A stretch of 64,000 bases of DNA. Source: Albidovulum denitrificans. GTDB taxonomy: Bacteria; Pseudomonadota; Alphaproteobacteria; Rhodobacterales; Rhodobacteraceae. Positions 9,215-61,627 of this stretch are shown piece after piece. Below the pieces are notes generated by a model that worked only from the letters and a program-made list of their open reading frames with translations, made no database searches and had not been told where the DNA came from. The DNA lies in NCBI RefSeq assembly GCF_002973535.1, contig NZ_PVEP01000008.1, positions 1 through 64,000 on the forward strand, written 5' to 3'. Numbering within the stretch: the first letter of the stretch is position 1; the number at the start of each line of letters is the position of its first letter. A program made the position numbers and the translations under genes.

Positions 9215-10636
9215 ATGGCGGGCGGGTTCACATATTTCGTCATCCTCGCCGGAATGCGGACCGGGTCGAACCTGCTGGAAGAGACCCTGAATCAGGTCGA
9301 AGGCGTCACCTCCCACGCCGAGCTGTTCAATCCGGTGCATCTGGGCGGGCCGAACCGGGCGGAGGCCTTCGGGCTGGACAAGGCGGCCCGTGACGCCGAT
9401 CCGATGGCGCTTTTGCAGCGGTTGAAGGAGGCGCCGGGGCTGAACGGGTTTCGCTACTTCGACGATCACGATCCGCGTGTGAGGGAGGCGATCCTGACCG
9501 ATCCGGCCTGCGCCAAGATCATCCTGACGCGCAACCCGCTGGACAGTTACGTCAGCCTTCTGATCGCCCGCAAGACCGGGCGCTGGCGGGCGTCGGACGT
9601 GCGCAAGCGCAAGGTTGCGAAACCCACCTTCGATGCCGCAGGGTTCAACGATTTCCTTGATGCGCGGCGGGGCTATCAGGAGGGTATCCTGCGCGCCTTG
9701 CAGGTCAGCGGGCAGACGGGGTTTTATCTTGATTACGAGGATGTGCAGTCGGTGGAGGTCATCAACGGCCTTCTGACCTTCCTTGGCGTCGGGGCCGGTG
9801 TTGGCCGTATCTCCCGCAAGCTGATCCCGCAGAACCCCGAGCCGCTGGGTGAAAAGGTGTCTAACCATGCCGAAATGGCGCGCGCGGTGGCGGGTGTCGA
9901 CTGGGCCGGGTTGGGGCGCATCCCGAATTTTGAGCCGCGCCGGGGGCCGGGCGTGCCGCGTGCGGTCGCGACGAAAGAGGCAGGGCTGCTCTATTTCCCG
10001 GTCGTGCCTTTTGCGGACGGGGCGGTGCGGCGCTGGATGACCGAAACGGGCGGCGGGCTGGTCGAAGGGATGACCCAGTCCGGCCTGCGCGACTGGATGC
10101 GCGACCGGCCGGGGTTTCGCAGCTTCACCATCCTTTGCCACCCGCTTCGCCGGGCCTATGCGGTGTTTCGCCGGATCCTTGAGGATGACGATTTCGAGGG
10201 GCTTCGCCTGGGCCTTGAAACAAGCTGGGGGATGGCGCGGCTTCCCAATGGCGGCGACCCCGACATCGCGCAGGAGCGCGCGGCCTTCCTCGCCTTCCTG
10301 CGGTTCCTGCGCGCCAATCTGAACGGCCAGACGCCGGTGCAGCAGCATGCGCTTTGGGCCAGTCAACTTTCCCTCCTGCAAGGGATGGCGCAATTCGCGC
10401 CCCCCGACCTAGTCGTGCGGGTTGAGACGATCGGCGCCGATCTGGCCCATATGGCGGGCCTGACCGGCCTTGCCGCGCCCGGACCGGAAGTGGGGGAGGT
10501 CTCGCCGCAGGACCACCGCCTGCGCGCGATCAGCAGCGCCGAGGTTGAGGCGGCAGCCCACGCCGCCTACGGCCGGGACTACCAGCTTCTTGGCTACGCA
10601 CGCGCGCTGCCCTATAGCATTTCGGGTTTACACTGA
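9215..10636 (+). CDS. Sulfotransferase-like protein, two-lobed (NodH-like)
   Basis: A 473-residue protein. Residues 1-210 are a PAPS-dependent sulfotransferase: the 5'-phosphosulfate loop appears as LAGMRTGSNLLEETL and the 3'-phosphate site as ILTRNPLDSYVSLL. The second half (about 240-470) contains a similar FTILCHPLRRAYAVFRRIL segment without a matching phosphosulfate loop, suggesting a degenerate second sulfotransferase lobe. The last seven residues (YSISGLH) and the stop are encoded by the 93-bp repeat at 10613, so the original C-terminus was altered by its insertion. It completes the glycan operon and would sulfate the product. Confidence 0.78.
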   Translation: MAGGFTYFVILAGMRTGSNLLEETLNQVEGVTSHAELFNPVHLGGPNRAEAFGLDKAARDADPMALLQRLKEAPGLNGFRYFDDHDPRVREAILTDPACAKIILTRNPLDSYVSLLIARKTGRWRASDVRKRKVAKPTFDAAGFNDFLDARRGYQEGILRALQVSGQTGFYLDYEDVQSVEVINGLLTFLGVGAGVGRISRKLIPQNPEPLGEKVSNHAEMARAVAGVDWAGLGRIPNFEPRRGPGVPRAVATKEAGLLYFPVVPFADGAVRRWMTETGGGLVEGMTQSGLRDWMRDRPGFRSFTILCHPLRRAYAVFRRILEDDDFEGLRLGLETSWGMARLPNGGDPDIAQERAAFLAFLRFLRANLNGQTPVQQHALWASQLSLLQGMAQFAPPDLVVRVETIGADLAHMAGLTGLAAPGPEVGEVSPQDHRLRAISSAEVEAAAHAAYGRDYQLLGYARALPYSISGLH

Positions 10637-10705
10637 ATCAGAATTCGAACGTATTTCGTTCGAATTCTGATACTTACTTTCTCAACGGAAACCCGAAACG
10701 CTTTA
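10613..10705 (+). repeat. 93-bp inverted-repeat element, copy 1 (MITE-like)
   Basis: Flanked by TA on both sides. Terminal inverted repeats are TAGCATTTCGGGTTT and, on the opposite strand, AAGCGTTTCGGGTTT. The interior is a palindrome CAGAATTCGAAC - loop - GTTCGAATTCTG. It lies between convergent genes and encodes the tail of the sulfotransferase. Three further copies of exactly the same length occur in this window. TA duplication plus terminal repeats fits a non-autonomous IS630/mariner-type element; no transposase is present. Confidence 0.8.
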
Positions 10706-23625: not shown

Positions 23626-24455
23626 CATTGGCGGCGCGGCATCAGGCGTTCTTCGACCTGCATCAATCCGGCTGCTTCGTGATCCCGAACCCGTGGGACC
23701 GGGGATCGGCGCGGATGATGGCGGCGGCGGGGGCGAAGGCGCTTGCCACCTCATCGGCGGCCCATGCCTTCACGCTCGGCCGGCCCGATATGGGCGGCGT
23801 CAGCCGGGATGAGGCGCTGGCCCATGCGCAGGACCTTTTGTCGGCAACCGCGCTGCCGCTGTCGGGCGATTTCGAGAACGGCTTTGCCGATGATCCCGAG
23901 GGCGTGGCCGACACCGTGCGGCTGGCGGCGGAGGCGGGGCTGTCGGGCTGTTCGATCGAGGATACGCGCATGGTGGCGGGCGCCCCGGCCTATGATTTCG
24001 ATCTGGCCGTCGAACGCATTCGTGCGGCGGTGGCGGCGGCCAAGGCTTTGGGGCGGCCCTTCGTTCTGTGCGCCCGCGCCGATGGGGTAATGAACGGGGT
24101 CTATGACCTGGCCGAGGGTATCCGCCGCCTGCAGGCGTTTGAGGTGGCGGGGGCGGACCTGCTTTACCTGCCCGTCCCGCCGGGGCCGGAGGAGTTGCGG
24201 CAGGTGCTGGCCTCGGTGACGGCGCCCGTCAACGCGCTCGCCGCCGGGCCGCTGAGAAAGCTGAGCGTGGCGGAATTGGCCGCGATGGGCGTGCGCCGGA
24301 TTTCACTTGGCAGTCAGGTCGCGCGGGTCACCCATGCGGCGATCCGCGATTGCATGGTGGCGATGATGGGGGCGGGATCGTTCGACCCGCTGATGGCCGC
24401 GGCCTCCGGCGACGAGGTTGACGCATTGCTCAGGAAAGGGACGGGCGATGAGTGA
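23622..24455 (+). CDS. Isocitrate lyase/PEP mutase superfamily protein
   Basis: A 277-residue TIM barrel of the ICL/PEPM superfamily. The SSAAHAFTLGRPD segment corresponds to the substrate-binding SxA..LG region, and SGDFENGF and SIEDTR correspond to the metal-binding D-x-E and the IED motif. The catalytic-loop KKCGH motif of true isocitrate lyases is absent, so it may be a C-C or P-C lyase or an oxaloacetate-type hydrolase on an unknown substrate. Translationally coupled to genes on both sides (4-bp and 8-bp overlaps), so it belongs to the demethylase operon. Confidence 0.8.
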   Translation: MTLAARHQAFFDLHQSGCFVIPNPWDRGSARMMAAAGAKALATSSAAHAFTLGRPDMGGVSRDEALAHAQDLLSATALPLSGDFENGFADDPEGVADTVRLAAEAGLSGCSIEDTRMVAGAPAYDFDLAVERIRAAVAAAKALGRPFVLCARADGVMNGVYDLAEGIRRLQAFEVAGADLLYLPVPPGPEELRQVLASVTAPVNALAAGPLRKLSVAELAAMGVRRISLGSQVARVTHAAIRDCMVAMMGAGSFDPLMAAASGDEVDALLRKGTGDE

Positions 24456-26001
24456 AGAGGCATTGAACTGCGAGCCGCGGCGGGCGGCACGGGCGGGCGG
24501 GCGTGAGGCACGCCGCGCATTGCGGGCCGCGCCCCTGGCCGAAAACCTGCGGCCGATCCGGGCGGGACTGCCCGGCGGGCAATACAAGCCCCTGACGCAA
24601 GAGGGTATGGCGCGGATACACGAGGCCGCGCTTGACGCGCTGGAGGTCATCGGCCTGTCGCAGGCCCCGGCCTCGGGGGTGGAGATCATGACCCGCGCGG
24701 GCGCCATTCAGGGCGATGACGGGCGGCTGCGCTTTCCCCGTGCGCTGGTCGAGGACATGCTGGCCCTTGCCGCGCGTGACCTCACCCTCTTTGGCCGCGA
24801 TCCGAAGCATGACCTGCACCTGACCGGCACCAACGTCCATTTCGGCACGGCGGGCGCGGCGGTGCATATCGTCGATCTGGAGACGAACACCTATCGCGAT
24901 TCCACCGCGCAGGATCTTTATGACGCGGCGCGGATCACCCATGCGCTTGATAACGTCCACTTTTTCCAGCGGGCCATGGTGGCGCGGGACGTGGCCGACA
25001 ACCTCGAGATGGACCTGAACACGCTTTACGCCTGCTGTTCCGGCACCACGAAGCATGTCGGCACGTCCTTTTCCGACCCCTCGCATGTCGCGCCGTGTTT
25101 CGAGATGATCCACCGGCTTGCGGGCGGTGAGGGCAAATGGCGCGAACGGCCCTTCATCTCCAATTCCAACTGCTTTGTTGTGCCGCCGATGAAGTTTGCC
25201 GAGGAAAGCTGCGTCACGATGGAGGCCTGCATCCGGGGCGGGATGCCGGTGCTGCTTCTGTCGGCCGGGCAGGCAGGCGCGACGGCCCCCGCGCCGATCG
25301 CGCTGGCCATCGTGCAGGCGGTGGCGGAATGTCTGGCCGGTGTGGTCTATGTCAACGCCATGGCGCCGGGGCATCCGGCGATCTTCGGCACCTGGCCTTT
25401 CGTGTCGGACCTGCGCACTGGTGCCATGTCGGGCGGGTCGGCGGAACAGGCGCTGCTGACCGCAGGCTGCGCGCAGATGCACCGCTTCTACAACCTGCCC
25501 GGCGGCGCAGCGGCGGGGATTTCGGATGCCAAGCTGCCCGACATGCAGGCCGGTTGGGAACAGGCGATCACCAATACGCTTGCGGGCCTGTCCGGCCTGA
25601 ACATGGTCTATGAGGCGGTGGGCATGCACGCCTCGCTTCTGGGCTTCTGCCTTGAGTCGCTGGTTCTCGGCGACGACATCCTGGGGCAGGTCCTGCGCTG
25701 TATCCGGGGCATAGACGTCACCGAGGATTCGACCTCGATCGAGGCGATGAAATCGGTCTGCCTGGGCGGGCCGGGGCATTATCTTGGCTCTGAACAGACG
25801 CTGAAGCTGATGCAGACGGAATATGTCTACCCTGCGCTTGGCAACCGGATGAGCCCGAAGGAATGGGTTGAGGCCGACCGGCCAATGCTTCTGGACAAGG
25901 CCATCGCGCGGAAGAACGACATCCTGTCGAAGGCCGGGATGCAGGTCGATCCGCAACTGGATGCCGCGATCCGCGCCGATTACAACATCTACTTCCGCTA
26001 A
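24448..26001 (+). CDS. MttB-family (trimethylamine methyltransferase-like) protein
   Basis: A 517-residue protein of the MttB superfamily, whose characterised members move a methyl group from a methylated amine to a corrinoid protein. It has no in-frame amber codon, so it is a non-pyrrolysine member such as the glycine-betaine and proline-betaine enzymes. Recognisable stretches are MARIHEAALDALEVIGL near residue 55, VHFGTAGAAVHIVD, and SAGQAGATAPAPIALAI. An Arg/Ala-rich leader of about 35 residues precedes the domain. No corrinoid protein gene is adjacent, so the acceptor must lie elsewhere or be different. It starts 8 bp inside the preceding gene. Confidence 0.88.
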   Translation: MSEEALNCEPRRAARAGGREARRALRAAPLAENLRPIRAGLPGGQYKPLTQEGMARIHEAALDALEVIGLSQAPASGVEIMTRAGAIQGDDGRLRFPRALVEDMLALAARDLTLFGRDPKHDLHLTGTNVHFGTAGAAVHIVDLETNTYRDSTAQDLYDAARITHALDNVHFFQRAMVARDVADNLEMDLNTLYACCSGTTKHVGTSFSDPSHVAPCFEMIHRLAGGEGKWRERPFISNSNCFVVPPMKFAEESCVTMEACIRGGMPVLLLSAGQAGATAPAPIALAIVQAVAECLAGVVYVNAMAPGHPAIFGTWPFVSDLRTGAMSGGSAEQALLTAGCAQMHRFYNLPGGAAAGISDAKLPDMQAGWEQAITNTLAGLSGLNMVYEAVGMHASLLGFCLESLVLGDDILGQVLRCIRGIDVTEDSTSIEAMKSVCLGGPGHYLGSEQTLKLMQTEYVYPALGNRMSPKEWVEADRPMLLDKAIARKNDILSKAGMQVDPQLDAAIRADYNIYFR

Positions 26002-28618: not shown

Positions 28619-30622
28619 ATGAGCTATCTTCTGGGCGTCGATACCGGCGGCACCTATACCGACGCCGTCGTGCTGGATGAGGCGGGCGACCGCGTCGTCG
28701 CCTCGGCCAAGTCGCTGACCACGCGGCCCGACCTGTCCGCCGGTGTCGGCGCGGCCATCGACGCGGCCATCGCGGCGGCGGGGATTGCCCCGGCGCAGGT
28801 GGGGTTGGTCTCGCTCTCCACCACGCTGGCCACCAATGCGCTGGTCGAAGGGCAGGGCGGGCGCGTGGCGTTGGTCTTCATCGGCTTCGAACAGGCGGAG
28901 TTCAAGCGCGCCGGGCTGGAAGAGGCGATGCGGGGCGACCCTGTGCTTTGGGCGAAGGGCGGGCATAACCACGGTGGCGGGGAACTGGCCGCGCTGGACC
29001 TTGATGCGCTCCGCGCGGCGCTGGTCGAGGTCGCGCCGGGTGTCAGCGGCTTTGCCGTGGCGGCAAGCTTTGCGACCCGCAATCCGGCGCACGAACTTGC
29101 TGCCCGCGAGTTGATCCGCGAGGTGACAGGCAAGCCGGTCACCTGTTCGCATGAGCTTTCTGCCGGGCTGAACGGCCCGCGCCGCGCGCTGACGGCGGTT
29201 CTGAATGCGCGGCTGATCGGGATGATCGACAATCTGATTTCGTCGTGCCACGGGCATATGGCCCATCTTGGCATCGACGCGCCCCTGATGGTGGTGCGCG
29301 GGGACGGGGCGCTGGTTTCGGCCGCCGTTGCGCGCGAACGCCCGATCGAGACGATCCTTTCCGGTCCCGCTGCCTCGGTCGCCGGGGCGCGCTGGCTGAC
29401 GGGGGAGAAGGACGCGCTGATTTCCGACATCGGCGGGACGACGACGGATGTCTGCCTTCTGAAGGACGGCCTGCCCGCCATCGACCCGATGGGCGCGCGG
29501 GTCGGACCGTTCCGTACCATGGTCGAGGCGGTCGCGATGCGCACGACCGGGCTTGGCGGCGACAGCGAGGTGCATCAGGAAGACGGGCTTGCGACGCGCC
29601 TGCGCCTTGGGCCACGGCGGCTGGTGCCGGTGTCGCTGGCGGCACGGGACTGGCCGGGGCTGGTTCACGATGCGCTCGACACCTGGCTGTCGCAGGACGC
29701 GACCGGCGATATGGACGGGCGTTTTGCCCTGCCGATGTGGCGCGGCACCGCCCCGGCGGGCCTCTCTGCGCGTGAGGCGGGGGTGGTGGAGCGGCTGGAA
29801 AACGGGCCGGTGCGGCTGTCAGACGCGGTGCGGACGCGGCTTGATATGCCCGCGATGATGCGGCTGGTGCAGCGCGGGCTGGTGATGATCGCGGGCGTCA
29901 CGCCGTCCGACGCGGCGCATGTGCTTGGGCGGCTGGACAGTTGGGATGGCAGCGCGGCGCTGAAGGCGGTGACGCTGTTCGCGCGGCGGCGGAACGGGCG
30001 CGGCGACCGGATCACCGACGGCCCCCGCCCGCTGGCGCAGGAGATCATTGACCAGTTGACGCGCCAGACCGTCGATTGCCTGCTGGAATCCGCATTCGCG
30101 GAGGAGGAGTGGGCGGATCAGCCGGAGGTGCTGGCCCGCCATCCGCTGCTGCGCGCGGGCCTTGCGGGCCATTCCGGCATCCTGCGCCTTCGCGCCGAAC
30201 TCGCGCTGCCGGTCATCGGCCTTGGCGCCTCGGCCCCCAGCTATTACGGCGCGGTGGGGCAGGCGCTGAACGCGCGGACGATCCTGCCCGAACATGCGGG
30301 TGTGGCCAATGCCATCGGGGCCGTTGTCGGCCAAAGCTCCGTCCATGCCGAAGGGTTGGTCTCCAGCCCCGGCCCCGGCCTTTTCGTCGCGCATCTGGCC
30401 GAGGGACCGGCGCGGTTCAATGAGAGGGAGCAGGCGCTGGACGCGCTCCGCGCCGCGCTGGACGCCGAGGCGCGCGCCAAGGCGCAGGCGGCGGGGATGG
30501 AGGATATGCGCATCACCGAGACCTGCGATCTGAGCGAGGTTGAGATCGAAGGCCAGCCGATGTTCATCGAGGCGCGGCTGCGCATCCAAGTCAGCGGCCG
30601 CCCGCGTATCGCGCGCGGCTAA
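28619..30622 (+). CDS. Hydantoinase/oxoprolinase family protein, HyuA-type
   Basis: A 667-residue ATP-dependent hydantoinase A-like protein with ASKHA-fold phosphate motifs GVDTGGTYTDAV (residues 6-17) and SDIGGTTTDVCLL (about 270). Relatives are the A subunits of N-methylhydantoinase, acetone carboxylase and 5-oxoprolinase; these normally pair with a HyuB-type subunit, which is not present here. It starts 9 bp after the GMC gene and is probably co-transcribed. The TAA stop is formed by the end of repeat copy 2. Hydrolysis of a hydantoin or lactam is plausible but unproven. Confidence 0.85.
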   Translation: MSYLLGVDTGGTYTDAVVLDEAGDRVVASAKSLTTRPDLSAGVGAAIDAAIAAAGIAPAQVGLVSLSTTLATNALVEGQGGRVALVFIGFEQAEFKRAGLEEAMRGDPVLWAKGGHNHGGGELAALDLDALRAALVEVAPGVSGFAVAASFATRNPAHELAARELIREVTGKPVTCSHELSAGLNGPRRALTAVLNARLIGMIDNLISSCHGHMAHLGIDAPLMVVRGDGALVSAAVARERPIETILSGPAASVAGARWLTGEKDALISDIGGTTTDVCLLKDGLPAIDPMGARVGPFRTMVEAVAMRTTGLGGDSEVHQEDGLATRLRLGPRRLVPVSLAARDWPGLVHDALDTWLSQDATGDMDGRFALPMWRGTAPAGLSAREAGVVERLENGPVRLSDAVRTRLDMPAMMRLVQRGLVMIAGVTPSDAAHVLGRLDSWDGSAALKAVTLFARRRNGRGDRITDGPRPLAQEIIDQLTRQTVDCLLESAFAEEEWADQPEVLARHPLLRAGLAGHSGILRLRAELALPVIGLGASAPSYYGAVGQALNARTILPEHAGVANAIGAVVGQSSVHAEGLVSSPGPGLFVAHLAEGPARFNEREQALDALRAALDAEARAKAQAAGMEDMRITETCDLSEVEIEGQPMFIEARLRIQVSGRPRIARG

Positions 30623-30712
30623 AGCGTTTCGGGTTTTCGTTGAGAAAGCAAGTATCGGAATTCGAACGAAATAAGTTCGAATTCTGATTCAGTGTAAACC
30701 CGAAATGCTAAA
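30620..30712 (-). repeat. 93-bp inverted-repeat element, copy 2 (MITE-like)
   Basis: Reverse orientation relative to copy 1, same length. Left boundary TA plus A gives the TAA stop of the hydantoinase-like gene; the right boundary shows AA where TA is expected, so one duplicated TA has decayed. It fills the gap between convergent genes, ending 7 bp before the stop of the regulator at 30720. Confidence 0.8.
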
Positions 30713-35920: not shown

Positions 35921-36013
35921 TATGGCATTTCGGGTTTACACTGACTCAGAATTTGAACTTGTTTCGTTCGAATTCTGATACTTCCTTTCACAACGCAAAC
36001 CCGAAACGCTTTA
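35921..36013 (+). repeat. 93-bp inverted-repeat element, copy 3 (MITE-like)
   Basis: TA at both boundaries, same orientation and length as copy 1, with a few substitutions (TGGCATTT at the left end; one arm of the inner palindrome reads CAGAATTTGAAC). It completely fills the gap between matB and ugd. The right-end TA plus A is, on the minus strand, the TAA stop codon of ugd. Confidence 0.8.
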
Positions 36014-37315
36014 GCGGCCCACACCCGCATAGGCCTCAAACCCCGCGGCTTCGGCGTCGTTCGGGGAATAGATGTTGCGCAGGTCGGCCATGCGAGCCTG
36101 TTTCATTCCGGCGGCCATGCGCGGCAGGTCAAGGGCGCGGAACTCATTCCACTCCGTCAGGATGACGACGATGTCGGCACCTTCGGTCGCGGCATAGGGA
36201 TCGTCCAGCCAGCTGACGCCGGGCAGCAGATGCTCCCCCTCGCGCCGGCCTTGGGGATCGACGACGCGGACCTTGGCGCCACCGCCCACCAGCGCCGGGA
36301 CGATGGTCAGCGCGGGCGCGTCGCGCATGTCGTCGGTGTTCGGCTTGAAGGTCACGCCAAGGACCGCGATGGTCTTGCCGTTGACCGATCCGTCGCCGAG
36401 GTCGAGGACCTTTTCGATCATCCGGCGCTTGATCTCGTCATTCACCTTGATGACCGTTTCGACGATCTGCATGGGCGAGGCGTAATCCTGCCCGATCCGG
36501 GCCAGCGCGGTGGTGTCCTTGGGGAAACAGGACCCGCCGTAACCAGGACCGGCATGCAGGAACTTGTTCCCGATCCGGTTATCAAGGCCCATGCCCTTCG
36601 ACACCTGCTTCACATCGGCGCCGACCTTTTCGCAAAGCCGGGCGATTTCGTTGATGAAGGTGATCTTGGTCGCGAGGAAGGCGTTGGCGGCGTATTTGAT
36701 CATCTCCGCCGTTTCCAGATCGGTGTAGAGGATCGGGAAATCGCGCAGGAAGAGCGGGCGGTAGATCTCGCCCATCACGGTCTTGGCGCGGTCCGAAGTG
36801 GTGCCGACGACGACCCGGTCGGGGCGCATGAAATCGTCGATCGCCGCACCTTCGCGCAGGAATTCGGGGTTGGAGGCGACATCGAATGCCTTGCCCGGCG
36901 CGGCGGCTTCGACCACGGCGCGCACCTTGGCGTTGGTGCCGACCGGAACGGTGGATTTCGTGACGATGACGGCATAGCCGGTCAGCGCTTCGGCAATCTC
37001 TTCCGCCGCGGCCATCACATAGGTCAGGTCGGCGTGGCCGTCACCGCGCCGCGTTGGGGTGCCGACGGCGATGAAGACGGCATCCGCCCCGTCCACGGCG
37101 GCCTTCAGATCGCCGGTAAACTCAAGCCGCCCCGCCGCGACGTTCTTGGCCATCAGCACGTCAAGGCCGGGTTCGTAGATCGGCACCTCGCCACGGGTCA
37201 GCATCTCGACCTTGCGGGGGTCCTTGTCGACGCAGATCACGTTATGGCCGAAATCCGAAAGACAAACACCGGAAACAAGGCCGACATAGCCGGTGCCGAT
37301 CATCGCGATCTTCAT
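36011..37315 (-). CDS. ugd: UDP-glucose 6-dehydrogenase
   Basis: A 434-residue NAD-dependent enzyme that oxidises UDP-glucose twice to UDP-glucuronate for capsule, LPS or exopolysaccharide. Rossmann motif GTGYVGLVSG at residues 7-16, catalytic Cys263 in GPGYGGSCFPKD, and the C-terminal NDP-sugar domain (GVTFKPNTDDMRDAP). AGGG 9 nt before the ATG supports the start. Its stop codon is provided by repeat copy 3. No glycan genes are adjacent. Confidence 0.94.
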   Translation of the reverse strand: MKIAMIGTGYVGLVSGVCLSDFGHNVICVDKDPRKVEMLTRGEVPIYEPGLDVLMAKNVAAGRLEFTGDLKAAVDGADAVFIAVGTPTRRGDGHADLTYVMAAAEEIAEALTGYAVIVTKSTVPVGTNAKVRAVVEAAAPGKAFDVASNPEFLREGAAIDDFMRPDRVVVGTTSDRAKTVMGEIYRPLFLRDFPILYTDLETAEMIKYAANAFLATKITFINEIARLCEKVGADVKQVSKGMGLDNRIGNKFLHAGPGYGGSCFPKDTTALARIGQDYASPMQIVETVIKVNDEIKRRMIEKVLDLGDGSVNGKTIAVLGVTFKPNTDDMRDAPALTIVPALVGGGAKVRVVDPQGRREGEHLLPGVSWLDDPYAATEGADIVVILTEWNEFRALDLPRMAAGMKQARMADLRNIYSPNDAEAAGFEAYAGVGR

Positions 37316-58389: not shown

Positions 58390-58465
58390 TGGTGAGCCGT
58401 GCAGGATTCGAACCTGCGACCCACTGATTAAAAGTCAGTTGCTCTACCAACTGAGCTAACGGCCC
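58390..58465 (-). tRNA. tRNA-Lys (TTT)
   Basis: A 76-nt cloverleaf on the minus strand: acceptor GGGCCGT paired with ACGGCTC (one G-U), D-arm TAGCTCAGTTGGTAGAGCA, anticodon loop CTTTTAA with TTT anticodon at 58430-58432, T-arm GGTTCGAATCC, and encoded CCA. Between the GntR gene and dapF. Confidence 0.97.
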
Positions 58466-58562: not shown

Positions 58563-59402
58563 ATGAAAGACGCGCGCGCCCCTGCTGGCCTGGCCTTCGT
58601 GAAGATGCACGGGGCGGGCAATGACTTCGTGATCCTCGATTCACGGGGGCGGGATCGTGTGACCACTCCGGCGCTTGCCGCGGCCCTCGGTGATCGCCAT
58701 CGCGGCGTGGGTTTCGACCAGCTGGCCGAGATCCTCGATGCGGAGGGCGCCGATTACGCGCTCGAGTTCTGGAATTCGGACGGGTCGCGCGCGGGGGCCT
58801 GTGGCAATGCCTCGCGCTGTGTGGCCGATCGCGTCATGCAGGGGCTGGGCCGCGACCGGGTCAGCTTCGTGACCGAACGCGGCACGCTGGCCGCGCTGCG
58901 CCGCCCCGACGGGCTTGTCAGCGTCAACATGGGCGATCCGATCCTCGACTGGCAGGGCGTGCCTCTGGCTGAAGGGGCAGACCTCCTGCACCTGCCGATT
59001 GCGGGCGATCCCGCCGCCGTCGGCATGGGCAACCCGCATTGCGTCTTCTTCGTCGCGGATGCCGAGGCGGTGGACCTGCCGCGCGAGGGTGGCGTGATGG
59101 AGCATCACCCCCTCTTCCCCAAGGCAACCAATGTCGAATACGCCACGCTGACCGGCCCCGACCGGCTGCGGATGCGGGTCTGGGAACGCGGCACCGGCAT
59201 CACGCTCGCCTGCGGGTCCGGCGCCTGCGCCACGGCCGTCGCGGCCCATCTGCGCGGGCTGACCGGGCGGCGCGTGACGCTTGATCTTGACGGCGGGACG
59301 CTTGAGATCGACTGGCGCGAGGATGGCGTCTGGATGACCGGGCCGACGACCCATGTCTTTGACGGCACCCTCACCCCCGCCTTCCTCGCCGCCCATCCAT
59401 GA
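58563..59402 (+). CDS. dapF: Diaminopimelate epimerase
   Basis: A 279-residue cofactor-independent epimerase that converts LL-DAP to meso-DAP for lysine and peptidoglycan. The two catalytic cysteines are Cys80 ([11 protein letters not shown]) and Cys217 ([10 protein letters not shown]). The start MKDARAP is used; longer frames run into tRNA-proximal sequence. ATGA overlap couples it to mtaB, a common Rhodobacteraceae pair. Confidence 0.95.
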
Positions 59403-60652
59403 AACCGCCGGTCTTCTCCACCCTCGGCTGCCGTCTCAACGCCTATGAGACGGAGGCGATGAAGGAACTCGCCACGGCTGCCGGGTTGGACGGCGCCGTC
59501 GTGGTCAACACCTGCGCCGTCACGGCCGAGGCGGTGCGCAAGGCCAAGCAGGAGATCCGCCGTCTCGCCCGCGACAATCCCGGCGCGGCGGTGATCGTCA
59601 CCGGCTGCGCCGCCCAGACCGAACCGGCGACCTTCGCCGCCATGCCCGAGGTCACCCGCGTCATCGGCAATAGCGAAAAGATGCAGGCCGAGACCTGGAG
59701 GACGCTGACCGCCCCCGACCTGATCGGCGAGACGGAGCGCGTGATGGTCGATGACATCATGTCGGTGACCGAGACCGCCGGGCATCTCATCGACGGCTTC
59801 GGCCGCCACCGCGCCTATGTGCAGGTCCAGAACGGTTGCGACCACCGCTGCACCTTCTGCATTATCCCCTTCGGGCGCGGCAATTCCCGCTCCGTCCCCG
59901 CCGGCGTTGTGGTGGAACAGATCAAGCGGCTGGTGGGCAAGGGCTTTCATGAGGTCGTGCTGACCGGGGTCGACCTGACCTCATGGGGTGCCGACCTGCC
60001 CGGCGGGCCGCGCCTCGGCGATCTGGTGATGCGCATCCTGAGGCTGGTCCCGGACCTCGCCCGGCTTCGCATCTCCTCGATCGATTCGATCGAGGCGGAT
60101 GAAAACCTGATGCAGGCCATCGCGACCGAACCGCGCCTGATGCCGCATCTGCATCTCAGCCTTCAGGCGGGCGACGACATGATCCTGAAGCGGATGAAGC
60201 GCCGCCACCTGCGCGACGACGCGATCCGCTTTTGTGAGGATGCGCGGCGCCTGCGCCCCGATATCGTCTTCGGCGCCGACATCATCGCCGGTTTCCCGAC
60301 CGAGACGGAGGCTATGTTCGACAACTCGCTGAAGCTGGTCGAGGAGTGCGGGTTGACCTTCCTCCACGTCTTCCCCTTCAGTCCGCGCCAGGGAACCCCC
60401 GCCGCCCGGATGCCGCAGGTCAGGGGACCGGCGATCCGCGAACGCGCCGCCCGGCTCAGGGCGGCGGGCGATGCCGCGCTTGCGCGCCACCTCGATGCGC
60501 AGCGCGGGCAAACCCACCGCGTCCTCACCGAAGGTCCGCGCCTTGGCCGGACCGAACAGTTCACCGAAGTGGCCTTCGCCGAGGACCGCCCCCAAGGCAG
60601 CCTTCTGACCGTGACCATCCGCGGTCATGACGGCATCCGGCTGACTGCCTAA
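59399..60652 (+). CDS. mtaB: tRNA methylthiotransferase MtaB
   Basis: A 417-residue radical-SAM enzyme that methylthiolates t6A37 in tRNA. N-terminal UPF0004 cysteines Cys11, Cys39 and Cys70 bind the auxiliary cluster; the radical SAM motif CDHRCTFC uses Cys147, Cys151 and Cys154. A C-terminal region resembles TRAM. Its TAA stop is the in-frame TA of repeat copy 4 followed by the first base of the element. Confidence 0.94.
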
Positions 60653-60742
60653 AGCGTTTCGGGTTTCCGTTGAGAAAGTAAGTGTCAGAATTCGAAAGAA
60701 ATAAGTTCGAATTCTGATTCAGTGTAAACCCGAAATGCTATA
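60650..60742 (-). repeat. 93-bp inverted-repeat element, copy 4 (MITE-like)
   Basis: Reverse orientation relative to copy 1, TA at both boundaries, same length; one arm of the inner palindrome has a substitution (CGAAAG instead of CGAACG). It abuts the mtaB stop codon and precedes the ribH terminator. Confidence 0.8.
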
Positions 60743-61319: not shown

Positions 61320-61335
61320 CATTGCGGACCTGTAC

Positions 61336-61486
61336 GTTCTCTTTCATCCGGACTGTGACCGTCGGCCCCGGCATCGCACCGGATCTGCTGACCCCACGCT
61401 TTCGCGAGGGCGCTCGCGGGCTCGGGGCGCGCGCGCGCGTATTGGCCCCATACCGCCGGTGGGGAATTCCGCCCCGCCCTGAGAAC
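61336..61486 (-). ncRNA. FMN riboswitch (RFN element)
   Basis: Minus-strand leader with the conserved RFN parts in order: GTTCTCAGGGCGGGG (P1/P2), AATTCCCCACCGGCGGT, AGCCCGCGAGC, GGTCAGCAGATCCGGT, GCCGACGGTCACAGTCC and GGATGAAAGAGAAC closing P1. It lies 91 nt upstream of ribH and occupies most of the 382-bp gap between ribH and the paiB-like gene. Expected to repress ribH when FMN is high. Confidence 0.95.
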
Positions 61487-61627
61487 GCGGGCAGGATGGC
61501 AGGGGGCGGGGTCTTGCGCAAGGGCCCGCGGCCCGGCGAGTGGCGCAAAGATTGTGCCGGTGACAAAGGCGGGGATGACAAACCCGCGCCGACAGGGGCA
61601 GATACGGGGGGGAAGGAGACCGTTTCG

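Follow-up and report, generated by a model that had tools for sequence, protein, structure and literature searches.

Why should a short non-coding repeat lie exactly on the stop codons of the genes beside it? The question was raised by the window, the 64,000-nucleotide stretch of an Albidovulum denitrificans contig that was analysed here, in which a first-pass annotation had recognized four copies of such a repeat at gene ends. All four copies were present, one of them at exactly 30620-30712 as claimed. The copies and the gene ends that they adjoin are the following:

10613-10705, minus strand: copy 1 of the element, its right end adjoining the gene at 9254-10636
10613-10636, plus strand: element-encoded tail YSISGLH (7 residues) and TGA of the gene at 9254-10636
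28619-30622, plus strand: gene with hydantoinase/oxoprolinase domain matches, running into copy 2
30620-30712, plus strand: copy 2 of the element, terminal TAs included, with the right TA decayed to AA
30620-30622, plus strand: TAA stop made of the target TA and the first A of copy 2, ending the gene at 28619-30622
35921-36013, minus strand: copy 3 of the element, its left end adjoining the gene at 36011-37315
36011-36013, minus strand: TAA supplied by the left end of copy 3, ending the UDP-glucose dehydrogenase gene
60650-60742, plus strand: copy 4 of the element, its left end adjoining the gene at 59399-60652
60650-60652, plus strand: TAA supplied by the left end of copy 4, ending the radical-SAM/UPF0004 (MtaB-like) gene

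The TAA composed of TA and the element's first A, which had been claimed for the hydantoinase-like, ugd, and mtaB genes, was seen in copies 2, 3, and 4. The opposite arrangement described for copy 1, with the right end abutting the gene, a TAT codon, and a seven-residue readthrough, was also seen: the target TA is now part of a TAT codon (10613-10615), and reading continues through YSISGLH to TGA. The statement that a terminal TA forms positions 1-2 of the last codon holds for copies 2 to 4; in copy 1 it applies to the last codon before the insertion and not to the present one.

The element is a MITE-like, non-coding repeat of 93 bp with a TA at each end (both TAs counted in the length) and an inverted-repeat structure, in which folding and the consensus showed terminal arms of 14 bp that pair and enclose an inner palindrome. 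The genome of 4.1 Mb holds at least 110 element places, many of them near-identical dispersed copies; the list joins two similarity listings, so the total is best read as this lower bound, and all 18 elements found in a 400-kb grid of the genome were already on it. The length from TA to TA was 93 bp in nearly all fetched copies, and their mean divergence from the consensus was 6.9%. The inner palindrome is partly or wholly gone in L123 and L178 (near the centre in both) and in L216 (76 bp), which keep both inverted ends. L131 and L132 (C1, about 423455-423702) are a like-oriented pair whose starts are separated by about 150 bp. An apparent second repeat family near some copies was resolved as neighbouring copies of the same element.

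Of 21 further genomes from the genus, 9 contained the element in a sequence search at E 1e-6; of 39 genomes from outside the genus, none did. Plasmid and phage records gave no match at E 1e-3, and viral contigs gave no match to the exact 20-base end pattern. Rfam returned nothing above the gathering score over the copy region of the window or in five further loci. For the ptsN-like gene neighbouring the element, the nearest named matches were from Rhodobacteraceae, including Defluviimonas.

Target sites were reconstructed by taking one of the two terminal TAs as duplicated. Among 100 copies, chosen under a stricter cut than the 103 used for gene context, the targets were CTAG (38), TTAG (30), CTAA (17), and TTAA (5), so that YTAR accounted for 90 of the 100, compared with 6.4% of the background TA sites in the same loci. 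Since YTAR contains a stop triplet (TAG or TAA) on both strands, the target TA so regularly occupies positions 1-2 of a stop triplet, and the TA of stop codons is used as target because the element prefers YTAR. The flanks of the copies show a palindromic YTAR with TA at both ends; as no relative is near enough to offer a clean empty site, we infer the TA duplication from these flanks rather than seeing it directly. Insertion into TGA (T|GA) was considered and rejected, because it predicts an A after the G in the right flank, and position +2 was A in 6% of the 54 copies that meet a stop with the left end only.

Gene context was assigned to 103 copies by calling genes on the flanks rejoined without the element; L123, L139, L161, L167, L175, L178, and L216 were excluded for a missing end or an aberrant length. 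In the window, the coding-potential gene caller, which was written for this analysis and is not a curated annotation, placed 61 genes that cover 91% of the length. The target TA lay in a stop codon in 74 of the 103 copies, between genes in 28, and inside a called gene in one. Genes away from the element in the same loci ended in TGA (338), TAG (82), or TAA (60). As controls we used 563 unoccupied YTAR sites from the copy loci and the 400-kb grid. At YTAR, 65 of 91 copies were at stops, compared with 63 of 389 unoccupied non-coding sites with a called gene on both sides (Fisher p 5e-24). A logistic regression on gene arrangement, target tetramer, and flank GC reduced this to a stop odds ratio of 2.85 (bootstrap 95% 1.45-6.12), with 5.64 (2.76-11.53) for convergent and 0.33 (0.10-0.84) for divergent arrangement and 0.23 (0.07-0.48) for TTAA. 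The excess was found within convergent intervals (stop/other 51/5 for copies vs 23/14 for unoccupied YTAR, p 0.001) and within tandem intervals (14/16 vs 40/168, p 0.002). After adjustment the stop excess is about threefold, real but moderate; convergent arrangement has a larger odds ratio than the stop itself, convergent junctions carry much of the concentration, and part of the adjusted excess may reflect gap length because the non-stop convergent controls sit in longer gaps than the copies. An excess at stops beyond intergenic insertion, on which the first-pass annotation had made its reading depend, persists. By extrapolation from 31 unoccupied sites in the 400-kb grid and 65 occupied ones, roughly a sixth of the genome's YTAR stop codons carry a copy.

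The two ends of the element were used very unequally. The end facing a stop was the left only in 54 copies, the right only in 3, and both, on the two strands, in 17, with no stop in 29. Where the stop of a single gene was involved, left therefore outnumbered right by 54 to 3 (p 4e-13), and at the palindromic target CTAG the ratio was 24 to 0. Altogether, the left end meets a gene in 71 of the 74 stop copies and yields TAA. A position model of the flanks, trained on copies without the single-stop bias, predicted the left orientation with 0.58 at occupied stops and 0.49 at 100 unoccupied ones; with predictions this near to even, the flank sequence does not set the orientation, and dictation by the flanks was ruled out. 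At overlapping stops, a penalty on right-facing copies alone predicts about 3 insertions (95% 0.5-9.4, a prediction resting on just 8 and 15 control sites), and 17 were observed (P ~0.004), a surplus suggestive of something beyond harmlessness. Among the tandem copies off stops, 16 of 19 run with the genes (p uncorrected), a bias for which stop restoration does not account.

The fate of the end triplets after insertion was different at gene ends and elsewhere. In all 71 left-end genes, 7 of which have weak coding scores, the left triplet reads as a stop (TAA 60, TGA 7, TAG 4, with 11 mutated from TAA), whereas in the other 32 copies it is a stop in 23 and lost in 9 (p 1e-5). Because the classes were called on flanks joined without the element, the loss of a left stop would have been noticed. 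The right end meets a stop in 20 copies, of which nine have mutated to a stop TAA or TAG and 11 still add seven residues; right-end stops occur in 4 of 83 copies elsewhere (p 3e-5).

Two relatives, G013 and G020, were analysed in the same way: 70 loci were fetched among the 79 matches listed, and 81 matches were reduced to 72 copies by removing duplicates and odd lengths. Copies at stops numbered 28 of 72 (left 21, right 4, both 3), fewer than in the own genome (p 2e-5). At gene ends all 24 of their left triplets are stops, compared with 34 of 48 elsewhere (p 0.003), and at the right end a stop was regained in one of seven. Stop/other counts in convergent intervals were 21/5 for copies vs 7/9 for unoccupied sites (p 0.02); tandem intervals showed no excess (7/24 vs 8/31, p 1), and tandem copies away from stops had no bias, 12 running with and 12 against the genes. 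The orientation bias is common to the two relatives, and the stop excess is weaker there. At most 3 of the 103 sites are common to the own genome and the sampled copies of these relatives; the one clear shared site pairs L147 with L255, with TGA in one and TAA in the other.

For the three window genes that end in the TAA, 57 orthologous loci of the genus were read, of which 56 were readable (the ugd orthologue L330 was unreadable at its end). The readable orthologues end at the same codon in 54 cases and two codons later in 2, and none has the element at its stop; L311 carries a weak partial element match (17.5 bits) downstream of the stop on the other strand. For copy 1, 80 named ptsN loci of other genera were inspected: a homologue of the neighbouring gene is present in 65, and the element is absent from all 80. 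The first-pass annotation had proposed that the original codons were TAA or TAG. The right flank indicates that the codon struck in this lineage was probably TAG, and the nearest hydantoinase orthologue, L292 (81% DNA identity), ends in CTAG; as a qualification, the 56 orthologous stops at the three sites are TGA in 42, TAG in 9, and TAA in 5.

The account that we consider highly probable combines a YTAR target preference with selection favouring the orientation that rebuilds the stop. A non-autonomous DNA element would be mobilised into the TA within YTAR, best CTAG, and would duplicate the TA. YTAR is scarce in the reading frames of this GC-rich genome, and elsewhere consists largely of TAA/TAG stops and sites upstream of genes. 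With the left end towards the gene, the target TA and the element's first A form TAA, and the protein therefore keeps its length; with the right end towards the gene, seven codons and a TGA are gained. Selection would then act as a filter: insertions in coding, upstream, and operon positions would mostly be lost, right-facing insertions at stops would mostly be lost or mended by point mutation, and the survivors would be left-facing copies on stops, mainly at convergent gene junctions. The earlier reading, in which insertion at stops is nearly harmless, is largely supported: it agrees with the adjusted excess, the 54:3 orientation, and the kept stop triplet, and it falls short for the 29 of 103 copies off stops, the 28 of 72 in relatives, and the overlapping-stop surplus.

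The surplus at overlapping stops, the weaker excess in relatives, and the tandem bias are compatible with the left end having a positive role. It seems to us unlikely that a left end on a stop enjoys active preference, either through insertion tied to gene ends or through a sense-strand hairpin following the TAA that aids termination or mRNA 3' ends, which would mean that about 70 gene ends are being rewired in this lineage with a stop and hairpin module from the transposon. We give somewhat less credence still to the specific proposal that the left-facing hairpin is useful to the gene as a 3' mRNA end, terminator, or stabiliser and that copies are kept by positive selection. RNA folding of two copies gave -39.4 and -43.0 kcal/mol for the left-to-right strand vs -29.9 and -30.7 kcal/mol for the other, as this proposal expects, but single changes in the stems that give G-U vs A-C on the sense strand number 54 to 87 in 98 own copies and 80 to 85 in 62 copies of relatives, and with no G-U excess on the sense strand, selection on RNA pairing is unsupported. 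Unlike an intrinsic terminator, the hairpin is followed by UAUA and the flank, with no U-run (ends inspected by eye). The left orientation is favoured beyond the right-facing penalty at overlapping stops, and among the own tandem copies off stops 16 follow the direction of the genes and 3 do not; the relatives, however, lack this bias off stops, and few element sites are common to the species.

A plain intergenic insertion, for which YTAR preference and short convergent gaps would suffice and the stop would have no role, draws on the larger odds ratio of gene arrangement and on the convergent junctions, where 23 of 37 unoccupied YTAR sites are already stops. We hold it to be very improbable, since it is contradicted by the 54:3 orientation, the kept stop triplet, the regained stops, and the stop excess within both convergent and tandem intervals. 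Insertion directed to the ends of translation or transcription, in a fixed orientation, would fit the overlapping-stop surplus and an orientation unexplained by the flanks, but is scarcely credible, because the regained stops indicate that selection acts and because at many convergent junctions the two stops are just a few bases apart, which leaves no apparent DNA-level cue for the reading frame.

Target preference with selection for the stop-rebuilding orientation also has to accommodate the 29 copies away from stops. A position 20-45 nt upstream of a called start was found for 14 of 23 own non-convergent, non-stop copies and 18 of 31 in relatives, compared with 79 of 314 unoccupied sites (p 0.001 and p 0.0003, respectively, the starts being guesses of the caller). 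Among the upstream copies, 8 own and 7 of relatives have a -10-box-like TARNNT, which was not significant (p 0.07); upstream copies possibly lie on -10 boxes that the TATAR right end of the element could keep.

Profile searches with PF13358 and PF13340 yielded no transposase partner carrying the element's ends. This genome has no DDE_3 gene, and the one found in genome G001 has ends that do not match; PF13340 is likewise missing from this genome, and the one broken gene in G020 has no matching end. As no partner was found, we infer transposition by a DDE transposase; both IS630 and IS5/IS427 fit the target of the element. IS630/Tc1-mariner elements and their MITEs resemble the element in the TA target, the TA flanks, and a CTAG-type target. 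Tenzen and Ohtsubo are said to have reported in 1991 that an IS630-derived transposon prefers the TA in CTAG (title cited in PMC2170065). REP sequences and REPINs are single hairpins or pairs tied to the RAYT tyrosine transposase, and the TA-flanked long inverted repeat of the element would argue against that system. As regards ERIC, Rfam yielded no above-threshold match for the element. The available portion of PMC11677980 gives the IS5 target as CA/TAG/A, and that of PMC3281130 attributes mostly 2-bp repeats to the IS427 elements of Paracoccus.

Other bacterial repeats share some of these features. RUP of Streptococcus pneumoniae is 107 bp long with a TA target (PMC2229807); unlike the element, it has no stop-codon rule in the accessible part of that description. 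BOX, RUP, and SPRITE are over-represented between convergent genes, which was interpreted as harmless parasitism, and BOX provides the stop codon of 36 annotated genes (PMC3049150, excerpts). They resemble the element in convergent-gene placement and, for BOX, in supplied stops, and differ in sequence and length, with no exact stop placement or orientation rule described in those excerpts. ERIC/RU-1 and Correia (NEMIS) sequences are about 100-150 bp long, with TA ends and hairpins, and lie near or over gene ends with some C-terminal extensions, according to the sections available (PMC2759123, PMC2229807). In those sections, RU-1 fusions delete the stop and lengthen the protein, whereas the left end of the element rebuilds the stop. 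No repeat placed exactly on stops with an orientation rule was found in the published literature searched, mostly papers outside subscription. Repeat-supplied stops are known from pneumococcal BOX, in the part of PMC3049150 consulted; the exact placement, the orientation rule, and the regained stops are apparently new within that literature.

The element offers a countable example of how a mobile element can attain a high copy number in a genome that is compact and GC-rich: the motif that it targets is a stop on either strand, and one end restores the stop. A transposon now supplies the stop of the 71 left-end genes, and 11 genes bear a seven-residue transposon-encoded tail, so that natural insertions lend themselves to measuring cost, repair, and orientation.

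Three further features were recorded in the window. An Rfam match to PYLIS_3, the pyrrolysine insertion sequence of mttB, lies above the gathering score at 25519-25618 (plus strand) in the called gene 24448-26001. An FMN riboswitch (96.7 bits) was found at 61332-61490 (minus strand), and a tRNA-Lys with anticodon ttt at 58390-58465 (minus strand).
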